DNA of 64,000 bases. Origin: Hippopus hippopus. Lineage: Eukaryota > Mollusca > Bivalvia > Cardiida > Cardiidae. The position numbers and the translations under genes are program-made. The DNA lies in contig OX328099.1 in assembly GCA_946811185.2 (NCBI GenBank), positions 21,727,859-21,791,858 of the forward strand, written 5' to 3'. This document shows positions 26,157 to 62,362 of the stretch, in pieces. Each line of letters opens with the position of its first letter. The first letter of the stretch is position 1. The notes under the pieces were generated by a model. It saw only the letters and a program-made list of their open reading frames with translations, had not been told where the DNA came from and searched no databases.

Positions 26157-26189
26157 TCTGGAACAAATATGATTTTATGTAAAATATCA

Positions 26190-28105: not shown

Positions 28106-28269
28106 AAGTGGAAAAAAACATAGCCTCCAAAAAACAAAACACCCCTTTTCAGGGCTACCCATCTTAAATAAACATCTTTCTTTTCATTTTGTCAGAAGAC
28201 TCATAATCAAAAAAGTCATAGGTTAGTTAAACTCTAGTTTTTCTAACCCGAACAAGAAAATGTAACAAA

Positions 28270-28440
28270 ACCGCGGATTGGTCAAAAATAAAACATTTAG
28301 TATTAGAAAAACAACGGTGAATCTGATTGGATAACATTAATTTGGAGCCAAAACAGCATGAAACGCCGACGCGGGAAAAACATAGGATAAAATGACGTCA
28401 TGGGTCAACTAGTTCAATCCTCCTGTAAAGCTATAAAACC
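28270..28440 (+). promoter_or_regulatory. CCAAT/E2F-like/CRE/TATA cassette, right arm of element 1
   Basis: ATTGG (28276, 28327), GCGGGAAA (28371-28378), TGACGTCA (28393-28400), CTATAAAA (28431-28438), ATG at 28488. Confidence 0.75.
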
Positions 28441-28487
28441 CAGCGTTATTTTCCCGCACATCATTCATCTCTCCGACGTACAACAAA

Positions 28488-28721
28488 ATGGAATGCGCAC
28501 TTCGAGATATGGATTTCTGGGAGCTTGCCCAGCTATCGTCAAAAGAAAAGAAGAAAAAGGAGAAGAAGAAGTTCAGCGTGCCCCAGACCGAGTGCTGGGA
28601 TAGTGACAACGAGCCACCGTTCTCACTTCAATACAACTTAGATGCTCAGGAGCTAAAAAGGATAAGGAGGCGGGCTGCGAGTAGCTGTCCGGCGTGCAGG
28701 AAGGTTGGAGGTTGTGCTTAA
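28488..28721 (+). CDS. 77-aa TIR-encoded CPxC protein (right copy)
   Basis: Same protein as the left copy except one Glu/Lys difference in the Lys-rich stretch. It has the same promoter cassette, the same hairpin around the stop (GGAGGTTGTG ... CACAACCTCC) and the same downstream stem-loop. Having a gene in both TIRs gives the element two copies. Confidence 0.8.
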   Translation: MECALRDMDFWELAQLSSKEKKKKEKKKFSVPQTECWDSDNEPPFSLQYNLDAQELKRIRRRAASSCPACRKVGGCA

Positions 28722-28765
28722 AAACACAACCTCCAAAACCAGGTCCCTTTTAGGGACACCCCAAC

Positions 28766-28781
28766 AGCCCTTTTCAGGGCT
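28766..28781 (+). terminator. Histone-like stem-loop after the right CPxC gene
   Basis: AGCCCT-TTTC-AGGGCT, AACCA, then CACGAAAGTTCTACC. A weaker hairpin GGTCCC-TTTT-AGGGAC lies ~20 bp upstream. Confidence 0.7.
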
Positions 28782-28934
28782 AACCATCTACCACGAAAGT
28801 TCTACCTTTCTTCAAATTGTCAGACGTAAGTTCTATCTTTTCTTCAAATTGTCATTTCTTCAAATTGTCAGACGAAAGTTCTACCTTCAAGCTATCAGAC
28901 GAAAGTTCTATCTTCAAGTTGTCATTTCTTCAAA

Positions 28935-29290
28935 TTGTCACAGCTCTTTTCAGAGCTAACCCAACAGTCCTTTTCAGGACTAACCATCTACCACGAAAGT
29001 TCTATCTTCAAGATGTCAGACGAAAGTTCTACCTTCAAGCTATCAGACGAAAGTTCTATCTTCAAGTTGTCATTTCTTCAAATTGTCACAGCTCTTTTCA
29101 GAGCTAACCCAACAGTCCTTTTCAGGACTAACCATCTACCACGAAAGTTCTATCTTCAAGATGTCAGACGAAAGTTCTACCTTCAAGCTATCAGACGAAA
29201 GTTCTATCTTCAAGTTGTCATTTCTTCAAATTGTCACAGCTCTTTTCAGAGCTAACCCAACAGTCCTTTTCAGGACTAACCATCTACCAC
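28935..29290 (+). repeat. Array of paired histone-type hairpins, right arm of element 1
   Basis: Three ~148-bp units with AGCTCT-TTTC-AGAGCT, AACCCAAC, AGTCCT-TTTC-AGGACT, AACCATCTACCACGAAAG, then repeated GACGAAAGTTCTA words. Confidence 0.8.
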
Positions 29291-29404
29291 GAAAGTTCTA
29301 TCTTTCTTCAAAATTGTCATTTCTTCAAATTGTCAAACTTCTTTTAGAAGAGATGCGCTCCAAAAGAGTTATACTCCAGAGAGTTATACTGCAAAGAGTA
29401 AAAA

Positions 29405-30010
29405 AACTCAGAAAAAAGACTAAGTCCAACCCAGTGCTCAGTCTTTTAGAAAGAAAAAAATCATTCATAATTGCGGAAAAAAGACTAAGTCCAACTCAAT
29501 GGTCAACCTTTTAGAAAGAGAGAAAATCATTCATAGGGGAAAAAAAGCTAAGACCAACTCAGTGATATAGGATAAATTTCCTTTTAGAAAAGAGAAATCA
29601 TTCATAGAGATGCAGAAAAAAGTCTAAGTCCAACTCAATGGTCAGGCTTTTAGAAAGAGAGAAAATCATCCATAGGGTAAAAAAACTAAGTCCATCTCAG
29701 TGATCAGGCATTTAGAAAGAGAAAAAATCATCCATAGGGTGAAAAAACTAAGTCCAACTCAATGTCAAAGCATTTAGAAAGAAAAATCATACATAGGTGA
29801 AGAAAAAACTAAGTCCAACTCAATGTCCAGGTATTTAGAAAGAAAAAAGTCTAAGTCCAACTCAATGGTCAGGCTTTTAGAAAGAGAGAAAATCAATCAT
29901 AGGGTGAAAAAACTAAGTCCAACTCAGTGTTCAGGCTTACCCTTAGCATATGGGTAAAAAAAAAACTAAGTCCAACTCAGTGATCAGGCTTACCCTTTAC
30001 TTTCCCTTAA
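29405..30010 (+). repeat. Subterminal tandem repeats, right arm of element 1
   Basis: Mirror of 15605-16210: about ten CTAAGTCCAACTCA units. Confidence 0.75.
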
Positions 30011-30223
30011 CTTTCACTTTTTTGCAGAAAAATTCCACTCAGGGAGGAGAGCCTGGGTAATTTTATCCCCAGAGTAACACCCACAAGGCCGCCATTTTGA
30101 ATGCTAAATCCCTCTCAGGGAGGGTAGAATAGGTAAAAATAGGGAATATAAAAAATGCAAATTCTTTCGGGAGGGCAGAATAGGGACAAATTTCTTCCAG
30201 GGAGGGTGATGTAGGGCACTCGG

Positions 30224-30277
30224 GGAGGAGAGTATAGACCCCTGACCATGGCCTGGCAGGGGTCTATACTCTCCTCC
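30224..30277. repeat. Terminal hairpin palindrome, right end of element 1
   Basis: Mirror of 15338-15391, with a perfect 21-bp stem. Confidence 0.85.
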
Positions 30278-30286
30278 TATACTACT

Positions 30287-47111: not shown

Positions 47112-47120
47112 AGTAGTATA

Positions 47121-47173
47121 GGAGGGTAGTCTATACCCCTGCCAGGCCAGGGCAGGGGTCTAGATTACCCTCC
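47121..47173. repeat. Terminal hairpin, left end of element 2
   Basis: GGAGGGTAGTCTATACCCCTGC versus GCAGGGGTCTAGATTACCCTCC: imperfect 22-bp stem, 9-nt loop. Mirror copy at 62301-62353. Confidence 0.75.
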
Positions 47174-47339
47174 CTGAGTGCCCTACATCACCATCCTGAA
47201 AGAAATTTGTCCCTATTCTGCCACCCTGAAAGAAGTTGCATTTTTTATAATCCCTATTCTACCTACCCTGAGTGGAATTTATCTGCAAAAAAAGAGAAAG
47301 TAACACAAAAAAGCCATTTTTCAGGGTGGTAGAATAGGG

Positions 47340-48110
47340 AACTGCCAGGTCTGATCACTGAGTTGGACTTAGTTTTTTCACCCATATGCTATTAGGATTG
47401 CTTTATTGTAAGTAACACAAAATGGTAAAGTAACACAAAATGGCAAAGTAACACAAAATGCCATTTTTGACGGCACTATAGGGATCTAGCAGGTCTGATC
47501 ACTGAGTTGGACTTAGTTTTTTTCACCCATATGCTATTAGGATTGCTTTATTGTAAGTGTCATCCAAAATGCCATATTTTCGAGGGCTCTATAAGCATCT
47601 GCCAGGTCTGATCACTGAGTTGGACTTAGACTTTTTTCTGCATCTCTATGCACCCTGAAAGAATTTGCATTTTTTAAAATACCCAGGGTCTCTACCCTGA
47701 GAGGGATTTAGCATTCAAAATGGCGGCCTTATGACTGACAGTCTGGGGAAAAATCCACCCAAAGAGACTACCCTGAATGGATTTTTTCTGCAAAAAAAGG
47801 GAAAGTTAAGGGAAAGTAAAGGGTAAGCCTGATCACTGAGTTGGACTTAGTTTTTTCACCCTATGAATGATTTTCTCTCTTTCTAAAAGCCTGACCATTG
47901 AGTTGGACTTAGTTTTTTCTCACCTATGATTGAATTCTCTTTTCTAAATGGCTAACCATTGAGTTGAACTTAGACTTTTTCCACCCTATGAATGATTTTC
48001 TCTCTTTCTAAAAGCCTGACCCTTGAGTTGGACTTAGTTTTTTTCACCCTATGAATGATTTCTCTAAAAGACTGAGCACTGGGTTGAACTTAGTCTTTTT
48101 CTGAGTTTTT
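47340..48110 (-). repeat. Subterminal tandem repeats, left arm of element 2
   Basis: GATCACTGAGTTGGACTTAG units, here partly interspersed with a second repeat (CATATGCTATTAGGATTGCT and ...TTTATTGTAAGT). Mirrored at 61370-62130. Confidence 0.7.
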
Positions 48111-48228
48111 TTGCTCTTTACAGTATAACTCTCTGGAGTATAACTCTTTTGGAGTGCAACTCTTCTAAAAGAAAGAAGTTTGACAATTTGAAGAAATGAC
48201 AATTTTGAAAAAAGATAGAACTTTCGTG

Positions 48229-48700
48229 GTAGCTGGTTAGTCCTGAAAAGGACTGTTGGGTTAGCTCTGAAAAGAGCTGTGACAATTTGAAGAAATGACA
48301 ACTTGAAGATAGAACTTTCGTCTGACAGCTTGAAGGTAGAACTTTCGTCTGACATCTTGAGGATAGATCTTTCGTGGTAATGGTTAGTCCTGAAAAGGAC
48401 TGTTGGGTTAGCTCTGAAAAGAGCTGTGACAATTTGAAGAAATGACAACTTGAAGATAGAACTTTCGTCTGTCAGCTTGAAGGTAGAACTTTCGTCTGAC
48501 ATCTTGAAGATAGATCTTTCGTGGTAATGGTTAGTCCTGAAAAGGACTGTTGGGTTAGCTCTGAAAAGAGCTGTGACAATTTGAAGAAATGACAACTTGA
48601 AGATAGAACTTTCGTCTGACATCTTGAAGATAGATCTTTCGTGGTAGATGGTTAGTCCTGAAAAGGACTGTTGGGTTAGCTCTGAAAAGAACTGTGACAA
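48229..48700 (-). repeat. Array of paired histone-type hairpins, left arm of element 2
   Basis: Four units (first pair at about 48239-48278), with the same AGCTCT-TTTC-AGAGCT / AGTCCT-TTTC-AGGACT pairs and GACGAAAGTTCTA words on the minus strand. Confidence 0.8.
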
Positions 48701-48913
48701 TTTGAAGAAATGACAACTTGAAGATAGAACTTTCGTCTGACAGTTTGAAGGTAGATCTTTCGTCTGACAATTTGAAGAAATGACAATTTGAAGAAAAGAT
48801 AGAACTTACGTCTGACAATTTGAAGAAAGGTAGATCTTCCGTGGTAGATGGTTAGCCCTGAAAAGGGCTGTTGGGGTGGTCCTAAAAAAGGACGTGGTTT
48901 GGAGGTTGTGTTT

Positions 48914-49141
48914 TTAAGCACAACCTCCAACCTTCCTGCACGCCGGACAGCTACTTGCAGCCCTCCTCTTCAGCCTTTTTAGTTGCTGCTCGTCCAAGGC
49001 GAAGTCCAACGAGAACGGTGGCTCGTTGTCACTATCCCAGCACTCGGTCTGGGGCACGACGAACTCCTTCTTCTTTCTTTTTTCTCTGGATGCCATCTGG
49101 GCGAGTTCAGATAAACTCATGTCTCTCAACGCACACTCCAT
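48914..49141 (-). CDS. 75-aa TIR-encoded CPxC protein (left copy, element 2)
   Basis: Homologue of the 77-aa protein: MECALRDMSLSELAQM, a short Lys/Arg stretch, TECWDSDNEPPFSL and the same end SSCPACRKVGGCA. The region between residues 45 and 60 differs (DEQQLKRLKRRA). The acidic centre and the cysteine end are the conserved parts. The codon usage is more GC-rich in the centre than in other genes of the element. Confidence 0.8.
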   Translation of the reverse strand: MECALRDMSLSELAQMASREKRKKKEFVVPQTECWDSDNEPPFSLDFALDEQQLKRLKRRAASSCPACRKVGGCA

Positions 49142-49179
49142 GTTGCAGCAAGTTGAAGAGAATGAATGATGTGCGGGAA

Positions 49180-49320
49180 ATGCCGCTGGGTTTTATAACT
49201 TTTCAGACGGATTGAACTAGTTGACCCATGACGTCATTTTCTCCTATGTTTTTCCCGCGTCGGCGTTTCATGCTGTTTTGGCTCCAAAATTAATGTTATC
49301 CAATCAGATTCACCGTTGTT
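49180..49320 (-). promoter_or_regulatory. CCAAT/E2F-like/CRE/TATA cassette, left arm of element 2
   Basis: Minus strand: ATTGG (~49300), GCGGGAAA (49251-49258), TGACGTCA (49229-49236), TTATAAAA (49191-49197), ATG at 49141. A second, partial CCAAT/GCGTCGG block follows upstream to about 49450. Confidence 0.7.
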
Positions 49321-49594
49321 TTTTCTAATACTAAATGTTTTATTGTTGACCAACCCGCGTCGGTGTTTCATGCTGTTTTGACTCCAAATTAATGTTGGCC
49401 AATCAGAATCAACGTTTTATTTCTAATACTAAAATGTTTTATTGTTGACCAATCCGTGGCTTTGTTGCATTTTTTGTTGTTCGGGGGTTAGAAAAGAACT
49501 AGAGTTTGACTATTCTACGACTTTTTTTTTATTGTAAATCTTTTGAGTTTTTGACAATTTTTAAAAAAAGATAGAACTTTCGTGTTAGATGGTT

Positions 49595-49610
49595 AGCGCT
49601 GAAAAGGGCT
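49595..49610 (-). terminator. Histone-like stem-loop after the 76-aa gene
   Basis: Minus strand AGCCCT-TTTC-AGCGCT (one mismatch), AACCATCTAACACGAAAGTT. About 33 bp beyond the stop at 49643. Confidence 0.6.
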
Positions 49611-49642
49611 GTTTTGTTTTTGGAGGCTATGTTTTTCCACTT

Positions 49643-49873
49643 CTAATGACAACACCCGAAATTCACTTGGCAAATGGCTAAGATGATGTCAGACGTTGTC
49701 TTTAAAAATAGTTGAAGTAATCTTTCGCTGAGATCTTTGTAGGGCTGTGTTATAGGTTGTAGTTGGTTTTGTTCCTCCTCTCCTACGAAGTGAGTGTTTA
49801 GTTGTAATAACTGTTGACCTGCATTTAGATATTCTTGGAGAGTCTCACGTAGTTGATAATTTATCTCCTCCAT
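49643..49873 (-). CDS. 76-aa CPxC-family protein, second 88-aa-type copy
   Basis: MEEINYQLRETLQEYLNAGQ opens like the 88-aa protein and it ends CQVNFGCCH, but it lacks the ~12 residues that hold the first cysteine pair (the CPIC region is reduced to ICQ). So it keeps only part of the putative metal site. Class II promoter upstream. Its counterpart in element 1 (27873-28105) is degenerate. Confidence 0.65.
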   Translation of the reverse strand: MEEINYQLRETLQEYLNAGQQLLQLNTHFVGEEEQNQLQPITQPYKDLSERLLQLFLKTTSDIILAICQVNFGCCH

Positions 49874-50010
49874 ATTGATACTGCTTCCGAATATTGACAC
49901 TGCTTCCGAAGTGATCGTTAGCTGAGAGCCAAAAAATGGTGAATGTATGAAAATAACGCTGGGCTTTATACGTTTACAGAGGCTTGAAATGTTTAAAGAG
50001 CTCGGGTCTG
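49874..50010 (-). promoter_or_regulatory. Class II promoter of the 76-aa gene
   Basis: Minus strand: GTAAACGTATAAAGC, CAGCGTTATTTTCATACATT and CTCAGCTAACGATCACTTCG, then the GAAGCAGT(A/G)TCAATATTCG repeat. Confidence 0.5.
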
Positions 50011-50159
50011 GCAGAAACCACATACATTTTTTCCATGCTGCGTTTCATGCTAATATAGCAAAAAAGTTATGAGACGATGTATGGAAAAAATGTAGACAGA
50101 ACAAGTCTTTGGTGAAAACAGAATGAAGAGCTCTATTGTTTTTCGAACTTTTATTTATT

Positions 50160-50490
50160 GAACTTTTATTTACTGAACAGAACTAAACATTGAAACATTT
50201 TTTTGCAATGCATTATAAAAAATTTCTTGACAATGAAAAAATTTCTTGACAATGAAAAAAATCACAAGGAAACATTTTTACAATACAGCATAAAAAACAT
50301 TTTCTTAACAATGAAAAAATCACACTGAAAAAATTTCTTAACAATGAATTATTCACAATGAATTAATCGCAATGAATTAATCACAATGAATTATTTTTTC
50401 GCAATGAATTATTTTTCGCAATGAATTATTCGCAAAACAGTATATAACAAATTTTTTACAATGCAAATTTCGCAAATACCACGAGTTTCA
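50160..50490 (-). repeat. AT-rich tandem repeats, left side of element 2
   Basis: Same repeat as 19500-19912, with GCAATGAATTATT words. It reaches the end of the 220-aa gene. Confidence 0.6.
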
Positions 50491-50499
50491 TATTTGTTT

Positions 50500-51162
50500 T
50501 CATATTCCTACCGTTTTGTTGTTTTTTCTTGGTTGTTTTCGCTCTGTCTTTGGTTTTTTCGGGATCTTGAAATCAACGTGATTATCAATGTTTTTCCCGT
50601 ATTTACCCTGGCCTGTCAATATTGGTGTAGTCGGTCTTTGATCAACTCGCTGTTTCTTGTGGAGATGGGTAGCATCTTCCTCAGATTTCCGTTTTGTTGT
50701 TTTTCTTGGTTGTTTTTCCTCTGGTTGTTTTTTCTTTGGTTGATTTTTCTTCACAACACTTACGATAGAGTCCACTAACTTGTGAAGATTGGATTTATCA
50801 AAGTCGAACTCCACAGGGATCTTCACAGGAGTTGTTGAAATGCACTGATCCTGTTGACGTAGTACCTCGATATTTCTACTGAGCTGCTCAGTACTTGTGC
50901 TTAAAGTTTTAATTTCCTCCAAATGTCTGTTTAAAGTCTCCAGCTGATCTATGATTCGGATCATCATGCTATCTTGTTTTAAATTTAGCTGCTTTACCTC
51001 TTCATAAATGTTGTCAAACACCGTCGCCGGAATGATGGTTGTCGAATTTAACTCCGGTGGTGGATTGATGATTGTCGAATTTATAACTGATGAAAGAACG
51101 TCTCCATTGTTTTCCGCTGGTGGAAAATCGTCCAAGTTGATTTCATCTAAGTTGTGCTTCAT
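50500..51162 (-). CDS. 220-aa coiled-coil/basic protein (element 2)
   Basis: Intact homologue of 26506-27168 with only scattered substitutions (for example PSVENN to PPAENN). The ATG at 51162 follows a class II promoter; an upstream in-frame extension lacks ATG and is not used. Confidence 0.8.
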   Translation of the reverse strand: MKHNLDEINLDDFPPAENNGDVLSSVINSTIINPPPELNSTTIIPATVFDNIYEEVKQLNLKQDSMMIRIIDQLETLNRHLEEIKTLSTSTEQLSRNIEVLRQQDQCISTTPVKIPVEFDFDKSNLHKLVDSIVSVVKKNQPKKKQPEEKQPRKTTKRKSEEDATHLHKKQRVDQRPTTPILTGQGKYGKNIDNHVDFKIPKKPKTERKQPRKNNKTVGI

Positions 51163-51399
51163 ATTGAAACTGTCTCTGAATATTGATACTGTTTGCAAAG
51201 TGATCGTTAGCTGAGAATCAAAGAAATGGTGTTTGGTATAAAATAACGCTGAGTTTTTATACGTTTACAAAGGATTGAAATTTTTAAAGAGCTCGGACCT
51301 GACGGAAAACACCAGGATTGAACTGTGTGACACCGAATTAGGAGTGGTAAAAAACACCAATATAACTATCGATTTAATTGGATAATGTTAATGAAACGC

Positions 51400-51475
51400 C
51401 GACGCGGGAAAAACATAGGAGAAAATGACGTCATGGGTCAACTAGTTCAATCCTCCTGTAAAGCTATAAAGCCGC
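51400..51475 (+). promoter_or_regulatory. E2F-like/CRE/TATA cassette for the zinc-ribbon gene (element 2)
   Basis: GCGGGAAA (51404-51411), TGACGTCA (51426-51433), CTATAAA (51464-51470), ATG at 51511. Confidence 0.7.
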
Positions 51476-51510
51476 AGTGATATTTTACATAAAATCATAT
51501 TTGTTCCAGA

Positions 51511-51717
51511 ATGGTTCGAATTCTTGTATGCCCTCACTGTGCAAGCAGATGTCTGATAGAGTGTGGAAAATGTTTTACCATACTTGAGTATCTTGGACAG
51601 AAGCATGACTGTCCAGATACAGATGAAGGATTTTACGATGATGATGAAGGTTCATCGACTTGTTGCGAACACTGTGGGTGTGAAATCATCCCGGTGGATC
51701 GGACGGAGGAGTCGTAG
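51511..51717 (+). CDS. 68-aa double zinc-ribbon protein (element 2)
   Basis: Same protein as 25950-26156 with a few substitutions (CASRCL, HDCPD, STCCEHCGCE). All cysteines except that in the variable position are kept, supporting metal binding. Confidence 0.8.
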   Translation: MVRILVCPHCASRCLIECGKCFTILEYLGQKHDCPDTDEGFYDDDEGSSTCCEHCGCEIIPVDRTEES

Positions 51718-51748
51718 AGCTGAATGTCAATGTGAGATCCTTTTAAAA

Positions 51749-51764
51749 AGTCCTTTTCAGGGCT
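51749..51764 (+). terminator. Histone-like stem-loop after the zinc-ribbon gene
   Basis: AGTCCT-TTTC-AGGGCT (one T-G wobble), AACCATCTATACGAAAGATC. Confidence 0.6.
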
Positions 51765-51996
51765 AACCATCTATACGAAAGATCTTTCTTTCTTCAAAAT
51801 TGTCAAAAGTAAAAAAGACTTACAGTCACAACTAGAAAAAGTCAAAAGTAAGAAGTAATTATTTTATATTTTTTATTTCAAAAAAGAACTTATGTACAAT
51901 GAAAAAAATCAAATCATGAACTGTAAAGACAAAAAATGAAAAAATCAAGTCAGTCTTTTTGTTTAAATTCAATATTGTGTTGAAATCTTTTTTCAC

Positions 51997-52847
51997 TCAG
52001 CATGTTTTTCTTTTTTTCTTCGGAATGTCAGATTCACATTTGGTTTTACGTTTTCTTTTCCTATCGTTGTTTTTTAATACCACATCTGGACAGATTTTAT
52101 CCTCGTGTTTTGTTGATTTGTAAAAGAAACAGTTCTTTGTTACTCGTTTTTTCTTCTTTTCGTTGTTTTGCTGTTTTTCCTCTCCGTACGAGCAACCCGG
52201 TTCTGCAGGAAATTCGTTGTTTTTTAGATCTAAAGTTTGTTGTTTTCTTAGATTATCATTTGTAGATATTTTTTCTCCACCTGTTCTGTTATTTTGCAGA
52301 TTTCTGAATCGTTGATATCCGTTGTGTCGCTCTGCATGTGTACGATCTGAGTTTCAACCGATGAGGATGTAGCTTGTGGTGAACTTTTTTTCCACGTATT
52401 TCCACTGCAGAATGAATTTAGTGTCCCGACGAATTTTATATCTTTGAGACCATCAACGTTGTAAAACGATGGTAAAATCTCAATGTCATGGCTGTGTGGA
52501 TTCACGTAGACAAAAACAATTGTTCCTGGCTGATTTTCTTTTTCTGGACATTCTTTGGCCCAATGTCCTGCTTCGCTGCATGTGAAACAAATATTTGTTC
52601 TCTTGCCATTCGCACCATATCGTTTGTCAATCGTCGCTTGATCAAAAACTCTGTATCTGGTAGTACGGTAAACATCTTTTTCTTCTAAATGTTGGTGGGA
52701 TAAAAATGATCCCACATAGTTTCCGATATGTTTAACATCATACTTTGATGGTATATTGCTGATCTCATAATCGTGGGTGTATGGATTAACATACAGATAC
52801 ACCCTCTTTCTAAGTGGTGATGTATTTTGCAGGTTTAACTCGCTCAT
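51997..52847 (-). pseudogene. CCHC zinc-knuckle gene, frameshifted
   Basis: Same start and knuckle (CFTCSEAGHWAKEC) and both YVNP repeats as the gene at 24793. Loss of one A in an A-run near 52272 shifts the frame after ITEQVEKK, giving a stop at 52248 and a 199-residue product without the basic tail. The rest of the coding sequence to 51997 is still recognisable. The N-terminal part could still be functional. Confidence 0.8.
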
Positions 52848-53005
52848 ATTCTTTTATCAGCTGTACTGTCTGAGATTGAGTAGGAGAATGATTAGATTTT
52901 CACAACTATCGTCTCTATTTATACACTGTTACAACGGAGAGGCTATATAAATTGTTAGTTTTTTCTCACTTCTGCATTATTGTCTTTTCACTCAGAGCTA
53001 AAACG
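52848..53005. promoter_or_regulatory. Divergent promoter (knuckle gene / polymerase), element 2
   Basis: TATAAATA on the minus strand (52917-52924) and TATATAAATT on the plus strand (52944-52953). Confidence 0.6.
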
Positions 53006-56000
53006 ATGGGTAAAAGAAAAAGAATAATAACCTATTCAGACAGCGAAAGTGACGATGAGGTGATTCCGCCAACAAAAAAGAAAAAAACTAGACCGTTGAA
53101 AGAAGAAAGTGACGATGAGATATTTCCAGCAATAAAAAAGAAAAAAACTAGACCGTTGAAAGAAGAAAATGACAGCGACGATGAAAGTATCAACTCTAAC
53201 TTAGACATGAAAAGTCTATATGATTTAACAGAAAAGGGAAATAAGAAGTCAAGAAAATTTAAAACAGAATCACATGTGCTGATGCTGAGTTTTAAGAAAT
53301 TTGAAGAATTAACACCTCAGAGACTACTTGGATTATTTGACGATGTTACCCATGAAATCATTCGAAAGTTAAATGCTAACCCTACGGACATGATTAGAAT
53401 TACCATCAATCATCCTTCGTTGGAAATAGGAATCCATATTCCTTTTTTAGCTGCAGCCCAGTTACAAGGTGAAACTATGCTGAATGAAATTGAACGAGTT
53501 TTACAATCGAATACAGATTTCGTCTTGAACGATGGATTCATGACATTTGACATTACACATACAATACCACCAAGTGGTAGCGGAAAACAAAAATATAGAT
53601 CGTCAGAATTAGATTCGAAGTTTTTTGCCCAGAAGAAGCAATCTATTATACAAATTGGTAATCATGACCAACTATGTTTTGCAAGAGCTGTTGTTGTGGG
53701 AATTTGCTACAGTGAACGTGAAAACACCGAAGTATGGAATAGAAAATGGCGTCGTATTTGTCGTTCAAAACGCCTTTTTCAAAAGACTGAAGCTGAGAAA
53801 TTGTTAAATGAAGCTGGAGTTTCACCAACACAGTCTGTAGGAATTGATGAATACAAAAAAATTCAAACATTCTTGTATGAAAAAGGCTATGTCATTAAAG
53901 TTCATCAACAGCATTCAAAAGTGGAAAAAATATTTAAACATCCAGAAGTGAAAACCAATAGTAAGATCATACATTTGTACTTTCATCAAAACCATTATGA
54001 CTACATCAAATCTATCAAAGGTTTTCTTAGTTGTGGATATTATTGTGAGTTCTGTGATGTGGGTTACTCTAACCGGGAAAGTCATGGTTGTTCAAATATC
54101 TGTAAAGGTTGTTACCGCAAAGGTTGTTGTCGCAAAGGAAAATGTCCATCAGAAATTAAAGAATATGTTTGCAGTGATTGCAATAGACGATTTTTTAGTG
54201 ATGAATGCTTTGAAAATCACAGAATTGTTCAAGGTAAAGAAAAGAAATCTATTTGTGAATTAGTAAAACTCTGTTCGAAATGTGGTGTACAGTATCTTAT
54301 CAGAAAGAAAAATCATGTTTGCAATGGAAAGAAAAAGTGTCATATCTGTAAGAGAATTGTTAACTTTTCTCATCAATGCTATATTCAGCCTTACCAAAGT
54401 AAGTTGAACCATGATAGCGATGACGAGACGAGTTCTTCTGTAGTTAAAAAACCACAGTTTATTTTCTTTGATTTTGAATGCAAGCAAGACACAGGGGTAC
54501 ACATCCCGAATTATTGTATTGCACACAGAGCATGTGATGAATGTATCGATAAATCACTTGATTTTCATTGTTCTACATGCAGTAAATTTGAAGAGGGTAG
54601 GGAAGTTATTTTTCAAGGTGAAGAAACTTTGAGTCAATTTTGCAACTGGCTCTTTTCAAAACATCATAAAGGAGTCACGGCTATTGCCCATAATTTCAAA
54701 GGTTATGACGGTCAGTTCATTCTTGGCTATATTGTCAAAGTTGGGTTAAAACTTCCAAAATTGATCATGAATGGAAACAATATTATGAAGTTAGAACTGA
54801 ATGGTGTACGTCTGATCGATTCTTTCAATTTCATGAGTTTTGGTTTGGCAAAATTTCCAGCCACATTTGGTCTTCAAGAAATGAAAAAAGGTTACTTTCC
54901 TCACTGGGCAAATACAGATAAATTTTGGAGTTACATTGGACCTTACTTGGATATATCTTATTACAAACCCGACTCAATGTCTGAAGAGGCTAGGTCAAAA
55001 TTCATAGTTTGGTATAATGACAAACTTCAAAAGGGTGAGGAATTCAATTTTCAGAAGGAGATGGAATTGTACTGTAGATCAGATGTTGATATCCTCAGAC
55101 GAGGATGTGCTGAATTCAGAAAGGTGTTTATCGAACAGGGTGGTATTTGTCCATTTTTAGAGGCGATTACCATTGCAGATGCCTGTAACAAGGTCTGGCG
55201 AAGCAAATATTTGCCAGAAAATCAAATAGCTATCATTTCAAGTAAAGACTCATCAAGACGTCGCTTTTCTATGAAAGCGATACTGTGGATTCAAAGTGTA
55301 GCTCAGGAAAAAGGTATTAATATTCAGCATGCAAAAAATGGTGGGGAAGTTAAAATCGGGAGATATAGTGTAGATGGTTTTCACCGTCAATCAAACACTG
55401 TTTATGAATTTCTTGGGGATTTGTATCATGGTTGTCCTGTATGCTATACAGATCGAAAACAGATCAATCCTATTAATGGGAAATCCATGTCTGAATTGTA
55501 CGAACGTACTTTTGAACGTATAGCAGATATCGAAAAAATGGGATATAATGTAGTGTACATTTGGGAACACGATTTTGATGCTAAGATGAAGGATAAAGAG
55601 TACAAAAAACTCATTGAAAAGTTATATCCACATTTGGACCCTATCGATCCGAGGGATGGTTTGTCCGGGGGAAGATGTAATGCAATAAAAATTGGATATG
55701 ATGTTGATGAAAAAAAAACCAAAAAGGAAATCAAGTACATTGATATCTGTCCTCTATACCCTTATGTTTGTAAACACAAATCCTATCCTGTAGGTCAGCC
55801 AAAAATTTTGTCTGCTGAGAATATTGATATGAACAATATCTGACAATATGAGGGATTAATCAAGTGTAAAGTTTTACCTCCAACTGATTTGTTTCACCCC
55901 GTTCTTCCAGTTCACTGTAACAACAAAATGATGTTCCCACTCTGTATGAAATGTGCAGAAGAAAGCTCAAACATTTGTAGGCATGGTAAAGAAGAGAGGG

Positions 56001-57013
56001 CTTTGGTCGGAACTTGGGTTACTTTTGAATTATTCAAGGCTCTTGACTGTGGTTATCGATTATTGCAAGTGTATGAAGTTTGGCATTTCAATTCTGTATC
56101 AGATCAGTTCTTTAAACATTATGTGGACAATTTCTTGAAAATTAAGCAAGAAGCCAGTGGTTATCCAGGTTGGTGTCAATCAGACTCAGAAAAAGATCAG
56201 TTCGTTTGTGAATATGAGAAGGTGGAAGGTGTTCGTCTTGATCCAAGTTGTATTCAAAGAAATCCTGGGAGAAGATCATTTGCTAAGATTATGTTGAACT
56301 GTCTTTGGGGAAAATTAGCTCAGCGTGAAAAAATGACCCAGACGGAATACATCAGTGATCCGTCTAAATATTTTGAATTAGTCACCAACCCTAATTTCAT
56401 TGTAAAGCATGTAGAAATCTTTGACGAGGACTGTTCATTCATCTTGGTTAACTATGAATCAAAGTTGGAACATATTGAAACCCACGCTACAGCCAATGTG
56501 GTAGTAGGGTCTTACGTAACAGCTTATGCAAGGTTGGAATTGTACAGTGTTCTTGAAAAGTTAAAAGATAGAGTTCTGTATTTCGATACAGATAGTTGTA
56601 TGTACATTCACGACCCTGAATTATGGAATCCTTCTATTATTAACAGCCGACTAGGAAAATGGACTGATGAAGAACCTGATTGTAAAATTACTCAATTCAG
56701 AGGGCTTGGGCCTAAGAATTATGCTTACAAAATGAAAACAAAAGATGGAGAAGAGATAAGCAAATGTAAAGTAAAGGGGATTACTCTGGATTACAATACA
56801 AAGCAGGTGGTAAATTTTGATACATATTCGAAATGTGCTTTGGATCGCACAATAGAAATCAAAATTCAGTATGATTGTAAAATTAAAAGACACAGAGATA
56901 GAACGGTTACCAGTGAACCACAAACAAAAACGTTTCGCTCTGTATACACCAAGAGAGTTATTGTAAATGGTACTGACACTGTACCCTATGGTCATAAAAG
57001 TTTGAGAAAATAA
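53006..57013 (+). pseudogene. Family B (protein-primed type) DNA polymerase, interrupted by TGA
   Basis: All domains listed for element 1 are present in one frame of 1,336 codons. It has a TGA at 55841-55843 (codon 946) where element 1 has an arginine codon. The product would stop after motif A and lose motifs B and C (YFDTDSCMY at about codon 1190). Motif A reads DICPLYP instead of DICSLYP (Ser to Pro), which would probably be harmful. Other differences from element 1 are a 4-residue insertion in the zinc-binding region (CYRKGCCRKGKC) and a 1-residue insertion after GYDVDE. The downstream half (from 55889) has an ATG and stays open. Confidence 0.9.
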
Positions 57014-57094
57014 TTTTATATCACATTGTTGTGTAGAAATCAGTCAAAGTAAGTCGAGAAAAAAATATTAGCCGCTGGTCAAAAAATAACAGCC

Positions 57095-57748
57095 ATGTTG
57101 ACGCTACCAATAGAACTACGTGAAAAAATTTATGGAGAATTTGTTCGACAGCATACGCTTGATAAACAAACACAGCTTAACATTAAATTTTTCTGTGTGA
57201 AAATTTGGATCGAAAAAATGTTTAAATGGGTTGCAAAAGGAGAAAAGTCCTACAAAGTGTATGGTATAATCATCTTTATTACGACGATGGTGGACAAATC
57301 GGACTTGGGTCTCTTTCTCAAAACTCATTTAGCAGATAGCTGTTTGAAAGACAATGTTATTAGTAACCCGTTTCGATCCACAAGCCGATGGACATTTTTT
57401 ATCATAGGAAGAACAGAAGAAAGTTTTCTTAACGTTCTGAAAACGAAATCAGTTCTATCTGACTTTTACTTACGGTACAAAGAAGGATCTGTTCATTCCT
57501 ACGGAGAAACAATGGAAACCATGTCAGGGTATATTCTATTTGATAGAGATGTTACAGAAGAAGTAGTATATTCAGCTCTTTCAGCAAAAGACGCTTATAG
57601 ACATGTTGCTCCATTCCTAGGACTACGAGATTTCGACGATATGGACAGTGAGTATACAATGTTTTTGGGGTATGACCAATTGCATAAAGACATTACGGAA
57701 TATGAAAACAAGTGTGAAACTCGTGGTATTTGCGAATTTGCAATGTAA
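57095..57748 (+). CDS. 217-aa protein, unknown function (element 2)
   Basis: Starts MLTLPIELREKIYGEFVRQH. Homologue of 19913-20563, intact and one residue longer near the N-terminus (MLT). It is 81 bp after the polymerase stop, same strand, with no hairpin after it. AATAAA is present at 58024-58029. Confidence 0.8.
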   Translation: MLTLPIELREKIYGEFVRQHTLDKQTQLNIKFFCVKIWIEKMFKWVAKGEKSYKVYGIIIFITTMVDKSDLGLFLKTHLADSCLKDNVISNPFRSTSRWTFFIIGRTEESFLNVLKTKSVLSDFYLRYKEGSVHSYGETMETMSGYILFDRDVTEEVVYSALSAKDAYRHVAPFLGLRDFDDMDSEYTMFLGYDQLHKDITEYENKCETRGICEFAM

Positions 57749-58035
57749 AAAATTTGTTATATACTGTTTTGCGAATAATTCATTGTGAATAATCATTGCA
57801 AAAAAATAATTCATTATGATTTTTTTCATTGTTAAGAAAATGTTTTTTTATGCTGTATTGTAAAAATGTTTCCTTGTGATTTTTTTCATTGTTAAGAAAA
57901 TGTTTTTTATGTTGTATTGTAAAAAAATGTTTCCGTGTGAATTTTTTCATTGTCAAGAAATTTTTTATAATGCATTGCAAAAAAATGTTTCAATCTTTAG
58001 TTCTGTTCAGTAAATAAAAGTTCAATAAATAAAAG
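57749..58035 (+). repeat. AT-rich tandem repeats, right side of element 2
   Basis: Repeat units TTTCATTGTTAAGAAAATGT..TATGCTGTATTGTAAAAATG. Same family as 19500-19912. Confidence 0.6.
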
Positions 58036-58189
58036 TTCAAAAAAACAATAGAGCTCTTCATTCTGTTTTTCCCCAAAGACTTGTTCTGTCTACATTTTTT
58101 CCATACAACGTCTCATAACTTTTTTTTGCTATATTAGCATGAAACGTAGCATGGAAAAAATGTATGTGCTTTCTGCCAGGTCCGAGCTC

Positions 58190-58313
58190 TTTAAAAATTT
58201 CAATCCTCCTTAAACGTATAAAACTCGGCGTTATTTTCATACAATCACCATTTCTTGATTCTCAGCTAACGATCACTTCGAAAACAGTGTCAATATTCGG
58301 AAGCAATATCAAT
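58190..58313 (+). promoter_or_regulatory. Class II promoter of the 88-aa gene
   Basis: CTTTAAAAATTTCAATCCTC, TAAACGTATAAAACTC (TATA at 58217-58223), GCTAACGATCACTTCGAAAA and a CAATATTCGGAAGCAATATC string. Confidence 0.55.
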
Positions 58314-58580
58314 ATGGAGGAGGTAAATCATCAACTACGTGAGGCTCTCCAAGAGTATCTAAATGCCGGGCAGCAGTTATTGCAACTAACCACTCATCTC
58401 GTAGGAGAGGAGGAACAAAACCAACTACAACGAATAACACAGCCATACAAAGATCTCGGCGAAAGATTAGTTCAACTATTATTAAAGACAACACCGGATA
58501 TCATTTTGGTTGATATCGAATTTGGGAGGAAGATTACAGCATGCCCTATTTGCCAAGCGAATTTCGGGTGTTGCTATTAG
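58314..58580 (+). CDS. 88-aa CPxC protein (element 2, intact)
   Basis: MEEVNHQLREALQEYLNAGQ starts a helical N-terminal two thirds (heptad-like Leu spacing, ending at RLVQLLLKTTPD). A short hydrophobic stretch and the cysteine-containing end RKITACPICQANFGCCY follow. The CPxC(x5)GxC pattern matches the end of the 75/77-aa proteins (CPACRKVGGC). A homologue with one stop codon is in element 1. I infer a small metal-binding dimer or adaptor; function unknown. Confidence 0.75.
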   Translation: MEEVNHQLREALQEYLNAGQQLLQLTTHLVGEEEQNQLQRITQPYKDLGERLVQLLLKTTPDIILVDIEFGRKITACPICQANFGCCY

Positions 58581-58613
58581 AAGTGGAAAAAACACAGCCT
58601 CCAAAAACAAAAC

Positions 58614-58629
58614 AGCCCTTTTCAGGGCT
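58614..58629 (+). terminator. Histone-like 3' stem-loop after the 88-aa gene (best match)
   Basis: AGCCCT-TTTC-AGGGCT preceded by CCAAAAACAAAAC and followed directly by ACCCA, then CACGAAAG at 58640-58647, i.e. 10 nt after the stem. The stem-loop fits the histone pattern GGYYYUHHUHARRRCC at 14 of 16 positions; only the outermost G-C pair is A-T. Confidence 0.75.
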
Positions 58630-58794
58630 ACCCATCTACCACGAAAGTTCTATCTTTTTTCAAATTGTCAAAACTCAAAAGATTTACAATCAAAAAAAGT
58701 CATAGAATAGTCAAACTCTAGTTTTTCTATCCCCGAACAAGAAAAAATGCAACAAAACCACGGGTTGGTCGACAATAAAACATTTAGTATTAGA

Positions 58795-58930
58795 AATAAA
58801 ACGGTGATTCTGATTGGATAACATTAATTTTGGAGCCAAAACAGCATGAAACGCCAACGCGGGAAAAACATAGGAGAAAATGACGTCATGGGTCAACTAG
58901 TTCAATCCGTCTGAAAAGCTATAAATCTCG
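58795..58930 (+). promoter_or_regulatory. CCAAT/E2F-like/CRE/TATA cassette for the 104-aa gene (element 2)
   Basis: ATTGG (~58814), GCGGGAAA (58859-58866), TGACGTCA (58881-58888), CTATAAA (58919-58925), ATG at 58963. Confidence 0.75.
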
Positions 58931-58962
58931 GCGATTTATTTTCCATACATTTCATTTTCACA

Positions 58963-59277
58963 ATGGCTACGATAGCACCACTTCTTGGTACTTGGATGGA
59001 TGCTGAGCGAAAGTTAATAAGAGCAAGGAGGCAAATCGTCTTACTTAAACAACGCTTAGCTGGAGTGAGAAGACGATACGAGAGGGCTGAGCTTGCTAAT
59101 AACAGGGTGTTCTGTTATAACCTTCGGATGAAGGAACTCATTATTGAGGGCATGCTTGAGATGTATTTTCAGTATGTTATTTCAAAAACTGAGCAGGTGA
59201 CCCGTCTTTTCCGCGCGCAAATCGCCGCTGAAAGGAGTGAGTCAGACAGCGAATCGACTGATGCTGATACTGAATAA
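58963..59277 (+). CDS. 104-aa basic coiled-coil protein (element 2)
   Basis: Homologue of 18229-18543. MATIAPLLGTWMDAERKL differs at the extreme N-terminus, then it is nearly identical to the acidic end. Confidence 0.8.
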   Translation: MATIAPLLGTWMDAERKLIRARRQIVLLKQRLAGVRRRYERAELANNRVFCYNLRMKELIIEGMLEMYFQYVISKTEQVTRLFRAQIAAERSESDSESTDADTE

Positions 59278-59310
59278 ACATTTTCAAAAAATCAGCTCTT
59301 CTCAAAAAAC

Positions 59311-59326
59311 AGCCCTTTTCAGGGCT
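59311..59326 (+). terminator. Histone-like stem-loop after the 104-aa gene
   Basis: AGCCCT-TTTC-AGGGCT, AACCA, then CACGAAAGA at 59337-59345, which resembles the sea-urchin histone downstream element CAAGAAAGA. Confidence 0.7.
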
Positions 59327-59454
59327 AACCATCTACCACGAAAGATCTATCTTTCTTCAAATTGTCATTTCTTCAAATTGTCAAACTTCTTTCTTTTTAG
59401 AAGAGTTACACTCCAAAAAGAGTTACACTCCAGAGACTTACGCTGAAAAGAGCA

Positions 59455-59815
59455 AAAAACTCAGAAAAAAGACTAAGTCCAACTCAATGGTCAGACAATT
59501 AGAAAGAAAAAAAATCATCCATAGATGTAGAAAAAACTAAGCCCACCTCAGTGCTCAAACATTTAGAAAGAAAAAATCATACATAGGTGAAGAAAAAACT
59601 AAGTCCAACTCAATGGTTAGACATTTAGAAAGAGAATTCATTCATAGATGCAGAAAAAGACTAAGCCCAACTCAGTGATATAGGGATAAATTCCTTTTAG
59701 AAAAGAGAAATCATACATAGAGATGCAGAAAAAAGTCTAAGTTCAACTCAGCGATATAGGGACAAATTCCATTTAGAGAGAAAAAATCATTCATAGGATG
59801 AAAAAAACTAAAAAG
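59455..59815 (+). repeat. Second array of subterminal-type repeats (element 2)
   Basis: AAGACTAAGTCCAACTCAAT and ...GAGAAATCATACATAG units. Counterpart of 17729-18050. Confidence 0.65.
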
Positions 59816-59828
59816 TGATCCATTACAC

Positions 59829-59836
59829 ATATAAAA
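59829..59836 (+). promoter_or_regulatory. TATA box for the 46-aa gene
   Basis: ATATAAAA, 70 bp before the ATG at 59906. The CRE/E2F cassette is absent here. Confidence 0.45.
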
Positions 59837-59905
59837 CACCAAACTCTTGATTATTTTTTCTCATTCACCATTAACTTTTCATAAAACCTGAACCAGTATC
59901 CCACT

Positions 59906-60046
59906 ATGTTTGGATTAACATTTTTTCTCTTATTGCTCTTCTGGTTAGAAGAAAGAGAACGTTTCAGATATATCAGACATGAAAATGAGCATCTGATGCA
60001 AATGTTAGATAAAATGGAATCAATCAAAAGAAAGAGAGGAGGATAA
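59906..60046 (+). CDS. 46-aa hydrophobic/helical peptide (element 2)
   Basis: MFGLTFFLLLLFWLEERERF ... KRKRGG. Homologue of 17500-17640, same length. Conserved through both elements, so I regard it as coding although it is short. Confidence 0.65.
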   Translation: MFGLTFFLLLLFWLEERERFRYIRHENEHLMQMLDKMESIKRKRGG

Positions 60047-60079
60047 AAAAAAGTGCATTCTGTACAAAAAAAACCAACC

Positions 60080-60095
60080 CTTTTCAGGGCTAGCT
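60080..60095 (+). terminator. Weak histone-like stem-loop after the 46-aa gene
   Basis: AACCCT-TTTC-AGGGCT then AGCTATCTTAAATAAACATC, as in element 1. Confidence 0.5.
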
Positions 60096-60254
60096 ATCTT
60101 AAATAAACATCTTTCTTTTCATTTTGTCAGAAGACTCATAATCAAAAAAAAGTCATAGGTTAGTTAAACTCTAGTTTTTTTCTAACCCAAACAAGAAAAT
60201 GTAACAAAACCATGGATTGGTCAAAAATAAAACATTTAGTATTAGAAAAACAAC

Positions 60255-60380
60255 GGTGAATCTGATTGGATAACATTAATTTGGAGCCAAAACAGCATGA
60301 AACGCCGACGCGGGAAAAACATAGGAGAAAATGACGTCATGGGTCAACTAGTTCAATCCGTCTGAAAAGTTATAAAACCC
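60255..60380 (+). promoter_or_regulatory. CCAAT/E2F-like/CRE/TATA cassette, right arm of element 2
   Basis: ATTGG (~60265), GCGGGAAA (60310-60317), TGACGTCA (60332-60339), TTATAAAA (60370-60377), ATG at 60427. Confidence 0.75.
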
Positions 60381-60426
60381 AGCGGCATTTCCCGCACATC
60401 ATTCATTCTCTTCAAGTTGCTGCAAC

Positions 60427-60654
60427 ATGGAGTGTGCGTTGAGAGACATGAGTTTTTCTAAACTCGCCCAGATGGCATCCAGAGAAAAAAAGAAGAAGAA
60501 GGAGTTCGTCGTGCCCCAGACCGAGTGCTGGGATAGTGACAACGAGCCACCGTTCTCGTTGGACTTCGCCTTGGACGAGCAGCAACTAAAAAGGCTGAAG
60601 AGGAGGGCTGCAAGTAGCTGTCCGGCGTGCAGGAAGGTTGGAGGTTGTGCTTAA
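60427..60654 (+). CDS. 75-aa TIR-encoded CPxC protein (right copy, element 2)
   Basis: As 48914-49141; differs by a few residues near the N-terminus (MSFSKLAQM) and the Lys-rich stretch. Stop codon within the GGAGGTTGTG hairpin. Confidence 0.8.
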   Translation: MECALRDMSFSKLAQMASREKKKKKEFVVPQTECWDSDNEPPFSLDFALDEQQLKRLKRRAASSCPACRKVGGCA

Positions 60655-60698
60655 AAACACAACCTCCAAACCAGGTCCTTTTTTAGGACCACCCCAAC

Positions 60699-60714
60699 AG
60701 CCCTTTTCAGGGCT
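60699..60714 (+). terminator. Histone-like stem-loop after the right CPxC gene
   Basis: AGCCCT-TTTC-AGGGCT, AACCATCTACCACGGAAGATC. Confidence 0.7.
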
Positions 60715-60894
60715 AACCATCTACCACGGAAGATCTACCTTTCTTCAAATTGTCAGACGTAAGTTCTATCTTTTCTTCAAATTGTCATTTCTTCAAATTG
60801 TCAGACGAAAGTTCTACCTTCAAACTGTCAGACGAAAGTTCTATCTTCAAGCTGTCAGACGAAAGTTCTATCTTCAAGTTGTCATTTCTTCAAA

Positions 60895-61245
60895 TTGTCA
60901 CAGCTCTTTTCAGAGCTAACCCAACAGTCCTTTTCAGGACTAACCATTACCACGAAAGATCTATCTTCAAGATGTCAGACGAAAGTTCTACCTTCAAGCT
61001 GACAGACGAAAGTTCTATCTTCAAGTTGTCATTTCTTCAAATTGTCACAGCTCTTTTCAGAGCTAACCCAACAGTCCTTTTCAGGACTAACCATTACCAC
61101 GAAAGATCTATCCTCAAGATGTCAGACGAAAGTTCTACCTTCAAGCTGTCAGACGAAAGTTCTATCTTCAAGTTGTCATTTCTTCAAATTGTCACAGCTC
61201 TTTTCAGAGCTAACCCAACAGTCCTTTTCAGGACTAACCAGCTAC
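60895..61245 (+). repeat. Array of paired histone-type hairpins, right arm of element 2
   Basis: Three units: pairs at 60902-60941, about 61049-61089 and about 61197-61237. Confidence 0.8.
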
Positions 61246-61369
61246 CACGAAAGTTCTATCTTTTTTCAAAATTGTCATTTCTTCAAATTGTCAAACTTCT
61301 TTCTTTTAGAAGAGTTGCACTCCAAAAGAGTTATACTCCAGAGAGTTATACTGTAAAGAGCAAAAAAAC

Positions 61370-62130
61370 TCAGAAAAAGACTAAGTTCAACCCAGTGCTC
61401 AGTCTTTTAGAGAAATCATTCATAGGGTGAAAAAAACTAAGTCCAACTCAAGGGTCAGGCTTTTAGAAAGAGAGAAAATCATTCATAGGGTGGAAAAAGT
61501 CTAAGTTCAACTCAATGGTTAGCCATTTAGAAAAGAGAATTCAATCATAGGTGAGAAAAAACTAAGTCCAACTCAATGGTCAGGCTTTTAGAAAGAGAGA
61601 AAATCATTCATAGGGTGAAAAAACTAAGTCCAACTCAGTGATCAGGCTTACCCTTTACTTTCCCTTAACTTTCCCTTTTTTTGCAGAAAAAATCCATTCA
61701 GGGTAGTCTCTTTGGGTGGATTTTTCCCCAGACTGTCAGTCATAAGGCCGCCATTTTGAATGCTAAATCCCTCTCAGGGTAGAGACCCTGGGTATTTTAA
61801 AAAATGCAAATTCTTTCAGGGTGCATAGAGATGCAGAAAAAAGTCTAGGTCCAACTCAGTGATCAGACCTGGCAGATGCTTATAGAGCCCTCGAAAATAT
61901 GGCATTTTGGATGACACTTACAATAAAGCAATCCTAATAGCATATGGGTGAAAAAAACTAAGTCCAACTCAGTGATCAGACCTGCTAGATCCCTATAGTG
62001 CCGTCAAAAATGGCATTTTGTGTTACTTTGCCATTTTGTGTTACTTTACCATTTTGTGTTACTTACAATAAAGCAATCCTAATAGCATATGGGTGAAAAA
62101 ACTAAGTCCAACTCAGTGATCAGACCTGGC
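61370..62130 (+). repeat. Subterminal tandem repeats, right arm of element 2
   Basis: CTAAGTCCAACTCAGTGATC units, with the AATAGCATATGGGTGAAAAA repeat interspersed. Mirror of 47340-48110. Confidence 0.7.
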
Positions 62131-62300
62131 AGTTCCCTATTCTACCACCCTGAAAAATGGCTTTTTTGTGTTACTTTCTCTTTTTTTGCAGATAAATTCC
62201 ACTCAGGGTAGGTAGAATAGGGATTATAAAAAATGCAACTTCTTTCAGGGTGGCAGAATAGGGACAAATTTCTTTCAGGGTGGTGATGTAGGGCACTCAG

Positions 62301-62353
62301 GGAGGGTAGTCTAGACCCCTGCCCTGGCCTGGCAGGGGTATAGACTACCCTCC
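62301..62353. repeat. Terminal hairpin, right end of element 2
   Basis: GGAGGGTAGTCTAGACCCCTGC pairs with GCAGGGGTATAGACTACCCTCC, nearly perfect. Mirror of 47121-47173. Confidence 0.75.
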
Positions 62354-62362
62354 TATACTACT

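Follow-up and report, generated by a model that had tools for sequence, protein, structure and literature searches.

Histone-type 3′ end signals behind the small genes of a Polinton-derived element in Hippopus hippopus

Messenger RNA ends that are made at a stem-loop and carry no poly(A) are regarded as nearly private to replication-dependent histone genes. The locus analysed here, a window of 64,000 nucleotides that is part of contig C4 in a 1.07-Gb genome, raises the question of whether small genes of a mobile element use the same kind of end. An earlier note had read AGCCCT-TTTC-AGGGCT, followed by ACCCA and CACGAAAG, behind one such gene, and the letters were verified exactly as it gave them. 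The histone-type assignment developed below draws on sequence, position, strand and conservation, and it makes it probable, in our judgement, that small genes of a Polinton-derived element, none of them a histone gene, carry the 3′ end signal of the host's replication-dependent histone genes and would yield S-phase-biased, poly(A)-less mRNAs.

Two Polinton-derived elements and their small genes

The window contains two related elements, E1 and E2 (Table 1), that share 89-93% identity over their main aligned pieces and have terminal inverted repeats of about 2.2 kb and at least 1.7 kb. Hallmarks of Polintons are a PolB gene, long terminal inverted repeats, AG...CT ends and 6-bp target-site duplications. 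Like Polintons (Mavericks), E1 and E2 possess a PolB (PF03175 in E2), which in E1 is split by a frame change, together with long terminal inverted repeats, termini that read AGTAGTATAGG with AG...CT ends, and 6-bp duplications in the flanks. Unlike them, the two elements yielded no integrase (PF00665) when ten ORFs, nine of E2 and one of E1, were compared with Pfam; they have no recognised capsid, and none of their small genes has a Pfam match above the curated cut-off. Capsid, protease and ATPase were likewise without a Pfam match in these ten ORFs, Pfam being equally blind to the presumed capsid ORFs of two independent contigs, L001 and L002, described below. Because no integrase was found in the scanned ORFs, we file E1 and E2 as Polinton-derived; they are perhaps mobilised in trans. 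Among the best 120 of 368 PolB relatives, the closest (342 members) has 83% identity, and the closest named relatives are from Mercenaria (55-56%) and then oysters (42-43%), in line with a bivalve host. No relatives of PolB, capsid or integrase were found in IMG/VR. A homology search with the 104-aa protein gave nothing at E<=0.01. The 68-aa gene is present in at least 150 genomic copies: out of 1440 candidates the 150 best were scored, and every one of them has 91-100% identity and no stop. A palindrome of about 40 bp lies just inside the element termini (about 15340-15385, 47125-47165 and at the right ends).

The earlier note had credited at least six different small genes with the hairpin; E2 does hold six such loci, which represent only four gene families (75/77, 104, 88 and 68 aa, the 88-aa gene having been listed as 126/138 aa). 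All nine strong hairpin sites on its list are present on the coding strand, the gene-end copy at 48854-48869 and the 26 hairpins of the terminal arrays can be added to that list, and its two weaker sites near 17459 and 60080 exist as decayed relics. Two further structures were seen beside these genes: a strong hairpin across the stop codon of the 75/77-aa gene at about 60640-60668, with equivalents in the other terminal repeats and thus in both elements, and an imperfect hairpin of about 75 nt at 58090-58165, upstream of the 88-aa gene, with a weak mir-58 match (E 0.057).

Table 1. Elements, small genes, gene-end signals, promoter sites and terminal arrays in the window.
Feature	Position	Strand	Remarks
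Element E1	15329..30286	-	14,958 bp; orientation opposite to E2; target-site duplication TGTATA
E1 left terminal array	16337..16672	-	six hairpins
Stem-loop of 77-aa gene (16893-17126)	16833..16848	-	E1 left repeat
Stem-loop of 104-aa gene (18229-18543)	18179..18194	-	E1; 5/6 pairs
Intact stem-loop behind 88-aa gene copy	18878..18893	-	E1; ORF holds a stop
Stem-loop of 68-aa gene (25950-26156)	25902..25917	-	E1; 5/6 pairs
Decayed hairpin behind broken 88-aa gene copy	28141..28156	+	ORF with two stops; stem position 2 no longer G; HDE gone
Stem-loop of 77-aa gene (28488-28721)	28766..28781	+	E1 right repeat
E1 right terminal array	28942..29277	+	six hairpins
Element E2	47112..62362	+	15,251 bp; target-site duplication GAGGTA; ends AGTAGTATAGG...
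E2 left terminal array	48239..48693	-	eight hairpins
Stem-loop of left-repeat 75-aa gene (48914-49141)	48854..48869	-	E2
Stem-loop of inverted 88-aa gene copy (ORF 49643-50023)	49595..49610	-	5/6 pairs; 32 nt past stop
Stem-loop of 68-aa cysteine-rich gene (51511-51717)	51749..51764	+	31 nt past stop
PolB (PF03175)	53006..57013	+	E2; two same-frame ORFs, in-frame stop between
Small gene, likely 88 aa	58314..58580	+	138-aa ORF from 58164 in the list; likely start Met51, judged from gene copies
Histone-type stem-loop of 88-aa gene	58614..58629	+	33 nt past stop; ACCCA next; RF00032 28.5 bits
HDE-like CACGAAAG	58640..58647	+	GAAAG from +14 past stem
Third motif AATTGTCAA	58663..58671	+	+34 past stem; common to host histone genes
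E2F-type site TTTTCCCGCG	58858..58867	-	upstream of 104-aa gene
Other seven TTTTCCCGCG sites (5′ ends)	17235+, 18639+, 26254+, 28379-, 49250+, 51412-, 60318-		E1/E2
CRE palindrome TGACGTCA	58881..58888		upstream of 104-aa gene; one of eight in elements, 13 in window
Small gene, 104 aa	58963..59277	+	E2
Stem-loop of 104-aa gene	59311..59326	+	33 nt past stop
Small gene, 75 aa	60427..60654	+	right terminal repeat of E2
Extra upstream hairpin GGTCCT/AGGACC, then ACCCC	60674..60690	+	5-nt loop; at 75-aa gene
Stem-loop of 75-aa gene	60699..60714	+	44 nt past stop
E2 right terminal array	60902..61235	+	six hairpins in ~147-bp units; HDE-like repeats

Comparison of the element gene ends with host histone genes

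The 64-kb window was scanned under relaxed conditions, with five or more stem pairs around a UNUN loop and G required in stem position 2. The 43 matches comprise 11 gene-end hairpins, 26 array hairpins, four antisense matches in copies of the 75/77-aa gene and two others (8534 and 59454). Six standard pairs are formed in eight of the 11 gene-end hairpins and five pairs in the remaining three (18194, 25917, 49610). The UUUC loop occurs at all 12 gene-end sites and the G at stem position 2 at 11 of them, the exception being 28141. Among the 11 gene-end hairpins, nine have A-U as their first stem pair and two (18194, 25917) form no pair there, which counts against the histone type; the first pair is G-C in all six host histone genes compared and in L002. 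The earlier note's compensated stem changes were borne out, with double changes in three of the six stem pairs, one of these through L002 only, and stem covariation reached 0.251 compared with 0.139 after shuffling; none of 500 shuffles was as high, a figure that is not a probability because the sequences are related.

The Rfam model RF00032, which that note had proposed as a check, found no match in the window at the gathering score of 34 bits, a result that taken to the letter speaks against its reading. At E<=10 the model gave 24 window matches, 23 of them inside E1 and E2 (best 28.5 bits, E 5.5e-4) and the last at 62439 (E 1.5), 77 nt outside E2; the hairpins at 18194 and 49610, two of the 11 at gene ends, went undetected. 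The cut-off is not decisive for this animal, since four of its own six histone genes also fall below 34 bits: the scores are 37.9 for the H2A.X-like gene, 35.2 for H4, 33.5 for H2A, 32.4 for H2B, 31.5 for H3 and 30.0 for H1. Across the host genome, where 75 of 305,864 candidates were scored, the model gave at least 74 matches, 58 over the cut-off, and 72 of the 74 lie in a histone cluster at C15:40.57-41.47 Mb; among 14 control genomes one had a match and none had a match over the cut-off.

The six host genes (H4, H2B, H2A, H1 and H3 of one repeat unit, and one H2A.X-like gene) all place a GG...CC stem 28-39 nt past the stop codon and begin a purine run at +12 or +13 past the stem, consisting of just three purines in H2A. 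At the nine element gene ends examined, the corresponding purine element is GAAAG, GAAAGA or GGAAGA and starts at +13 or +14 in every case. Besides this HDE, a motif resembling AATTGTCAA follows the stem-loop by 28-32 nt in all six host genes (L024, L026), and its counterpart in the elements, AATTGTCA or in one case ATTTGTCAA, stands at +32 to +36 at ten of ten gene ends and is repeated at +50 in the 104-aa gene. The host motifs fit AATTGTCAA in 7, 7, 8, 9, 9 and 9 of 9 letters, and none of 20000 shuffles scored as high, a result that overstates the significance because the motif was picked after both sets had been seen.

Taken together, the element ends resemble those of replication-dependent histone genes in their 6-bp stem, UUUC loop, A-rich 5′ flank, ACCCA/AACCA 3′ flank, purine element, third motif and distance of the stem from the stop codon (31-44 nt). 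They differ in belonging to genes that are not histones, in their A-U first pair and in a best score of 28.5 bits against a cut-off of 34. The earlier note's reading of histone-type 3′ ends thus gains support from the stem-loop, the purine element and the third motif common to host histone genes, and from an above-cut-off example in L002. Variability of the HDE would not be odd, since only some of the histone genes of the bivalve Lucina pectinata are reported to have purine elements close to the palindrome (PMC6210712).

A candidate U7 snRNA, L027:1501-1539, scored 25.9 bits (E 0.77), below the cut-off, and six of 14 prokaryote controls also matched below the cut-off. The candidate has CTCTTTC ahead of AATTTGTCTAG, contains an Sm-type site and adjoins a palindromic repeat. 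Pairing with this below-cut-off sequence was better than in 95% of mononucleotide shuffles for all five element HDEs, two of which pair at another segment of it, and for four of six host HDEs; H4, H2A, L002 and a further RF00032 site described below (C8) did not pass that level. By sequence, the pairing is suggestive only.

Gene association, conservation and rival explanations

The association was counted over 18 gene copies, ten of intact small genes and eight of long genes; the broken 88-aa copies of E1, two in number, were not counted. A hairpin lies 31-44 nt past the stop codon in 10/10 small-gene copies and 0/8 long-gene copies, the nearest hairpin being at least 865 nt away in each of the latter (Fisher P 2.3e-5 by copy and 0.029 by family, four versus four). 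The families are not independent, since their gene-end cassettes, which are near-identical over 60 nt (92-97%), have been partly copied between them. The long genes were said to have AATAAA in place of the hairpin, and this held in all eight copies, with AATAAA or ATTAAA 145-417 nt past the stop.

These observations bear on the strongest rival explanation, in which a histone gene 3′ end was captured once, duplicated as a cassette with the genes and arrays, and is now unused, the mRNAs being polyadenylated from other signals. Such a relic would account for the likeness of the cassettes between families and for hairpins in arrays that contain no genes. It would also fit the poly(A) signals at two of the families, which count against poly(A)-less ends: the 88-aa gene (2/10 small-gene copies) has AATAAA or ATTAAA 109 or 193 nt past the stop, and in the 104-aa gene (2/10) an AATAAA overlaps the stop codon. 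The hairpin at 18893, intact although its ORF holds a stop, counts against a gene-end role in the same way. The other six of the ten small-gene copies, those of the 75/77- and 68-aa genes, speak against a relic in having no AATAAA or ATTAAA within 1.2 kb, and so do the hairpins at 28141, 17473 and 60071, which stand behind a broken or missing gene, have lower scores and are decayed.

The relic explanation is further opposed by the 68-aa gene, which was followed through 50 genomic copies in two batches (30 loci including the E2 copy of the window, and 20 more) and in which three blocks are kept while the spacers change. The CTTTTCAG core lies 31-34 nt past the stop in 49 of the 50, with a UUUU loop in the remaining one, and all six pairs form in that register in 46. 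Per column, the stem-loop had a variability of 1.0%, the six bases that follow it 0.7%, the HDE 1.3% and the third motif 0%. The spacers reached 5.7%, 25% and 18%, the sequence beyond the blocks 8.9% and the final 30 coding bases 4.9%. Much of the spacer variation seems to split two groups of copies. The constancy of the stem-loop is not unique: when 111 noncoding windows are ranked by variability, it falls within the lowest 15.

Copies of the other three families were taken from 20 further genomic stretches. All 16 copies of the 75-aa gene with enough sequence show the exact hairpin 41-46 nt past the stop, and four of these 16 have the extra upstream GG...CC-type hairpin in exact form. For the 104-aa gene, 17 of 19 copies contain the hairpin core, and for the 88-aa gene 14 of 18; in the remaining two and four it was not found. 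Stem-loop against spacer variability was 0% versus 3.9% for the 75-aa gene, 1.6% versus 2.9% for the 104-aa gene and 7.6% versus 6.4% for the 88-aa gene, which therefore gives no support. The divergence between E1 and E2 alone was rejected as a test of selection, being too weak: 3/64 stem-loop positions differ compared with 55/577 in the upstream flank (P 0.25), the fifth pair, which includes the decayed copy, having been left out. On balance, we regard the relic explanation as unlikely.

The terminal tandem arrays, with periods of 121-148 bp, lie in the terminal inverted repeats beyond the 75/77-aa gene and together contain the 26 histone-type hairpins, and their 27-bp repeat unites ACGAAAG with a TGTCA motif, arranged as at the gene ends. 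A role as decoy or fail-safe terminator is possible. The more specific proposal that hairpin- and HDE-rich array transcripts titrate SLBP or U7 snRNP, and so upset the host's histone mRNA supply, could draw on the two hairpins and ACGAAAG-TGTCA repeats of each ~147-bp unit and on the position of the arrays downstream of the 75/77-aa gene on the same strand. It is nevertheless highly improbable, as no array transcript is known and processing at the first hairpin would stop the transcript ahead of the array. Least credible of all is a DNA-level function of the hairpins in terminal-repeat structure, replication or transposase binding with a coincidental likeness to histone ends, which the 26 array hairpins in both repeats of both elements might suggest and which we rejected on strand and position, given the UUUC loop on the coding strand 31-44 nt past the stop at 11 gene ends and the strand-specific HDE and third motif common to host histone genes.

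Under the histone-type reading, which we prefer, SLBP would bind the small-gene hairpin, U7 snRNP would pair with the purine element and CPSF73 would cut about 5 nt past the stem. The resulting mRNAs are predicted to be intronless, non-polyadenylated and present mainly in S phase; PolB and the other long genes would have ordinary poly(A) ends.

Promoters, independent cases and implications

The promoters of the small genes offer a second possible link to S phase. The sequence TTTTCCCGCG, which we take to be an E2F-type site from its consensus, occurs eight times in the window compared with 0.12 expected, always inside the elements, and the CRE palindrome TGACGTCA is found at five places in the window outside them. 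In eight of the ten small-gene copies, covering three of the four families, TTTTCCCGCG stands 96-109 nt and TGACGTCA 75-88 nt ahead of the ATG; the 88-aa gene has neither nearby. These promoter stretches are copies of one another and hence not independent, and the 220-aa gene shares a divergent region with the 68-aa gene. A TCAATCC motif lies near the TATA box of the 75/77-, 104- and 68-aa genes, of one of the two 88-aa copies checked and of the 220-aa gene. In the host it is found near the TATA box of H2A and H2A.X and upstream in H3, and it is not found in H4, H2B or H1. Up to 300 nt from the ATG, the six host histone genes have neither an E2F-type site nor a full CRE, so the element promoter was not copied from them. 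Viral early promoters driven by E2F and ATF exist, such as that of adenovirus E2. Like these, the small genes combine an E2F-type site, a CRE and a TATA box; unlike them, they add the TCAATCC motif known from the host H2A, H3 and H2A.X promoters. Such E2F/CRE/TATA promoters may help S-phase expression in three of the four families.

Evidence from outside the window comes mainly from L002. A GTDB scan with PolB returned three contigs (a Nocardioides MAG, a Bacteroidia MAG and a Solemya symbiont assembly), all of which we take for animal contamination. On L002 there are PolB, a TBP gene and an integrase whose chromodomain match is below the cut-off, along with presumed capsid and protease ORFs that have no Pfam match. 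Its RF00032 site scores 35.8 bits (E 3.5e-7), above the cut-off, 28 nt past an 89-aa C2H2 zinc-finger ORF that lies on the contig and may belong to the element itself, of which one end is missing. When a model was built from nine window hairpins alone, this site ranked first among 15 loci (22.6 bits, E 3.2e-4). Downstream of its stem-loop lies AAAGAG, which PMC7026596 gives as the purine core of a mouse H2a pre-mRNA. The third motif is missing at L002 and at the C8 site (6 of 9 letters), and the L002 ORF has, up to 300 nt from its ATG, three copies of TGACGTCA and a CCAAT box, without an E2F-type site. No RF00032 site was found on L001 or L003.

The C8 site, named after its contig (L025:4068-4112), is a separate observation: it scores 31.4 bits in RF00032 and lies 493 nt past a DDE_Tnp_4 transposase ORF, no ORF of at least 60 aa ends beside it, and its downstream sequence resembles that of L002. 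In IMG/VR the window-type hairpin pattern had no matches. Twelve stretches there with the canonical histone stem-loop pattern were judged to be at chance level, our own rough estimate expecting about that many; several repeat two sequences, and no histone-like context was seen. In the open-access literature we found nothing joining Polintons with a histone stem-loop or with replication-dependent histones and nothing with CAAGAAAGA in a histone stem-loop context, and in titles and abstract starts of the papers listed nothing on histone-type ends in mobile elements, viruses with such ends being less thoroughly covered.

We lean slightly towards a broader view, in which a Polinton lineage built a full S-phase cassette, in which an E2F/CRE/TATA promoter is combined with an SLBP/U7 3′ end matched to the host, and multiplied it across one animal genome, as the copy number of the 68-aa gene indicates; L002-like Polintons would have done likewise, and replication-coupled, poly(A)-less expression might be a general Polinton strategy. 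The natural variants found here, with their A-U first pair and tandem hairpins, lend themselves to tests of SLBP and U7 specificity, and the third motif, which the element has in common with the host genes examined, could be tested as a further defining part of the histone 3′ end in this animal. If the histone-type reading is true, it would explain why poly(A)-selected RNA data could miss the small genes, and it would show how mobile elements couple their expression to host DNA replication, the likely benefit being that accessory genes would be switched on during host DNA replication, as a DNA-replicating element needs.
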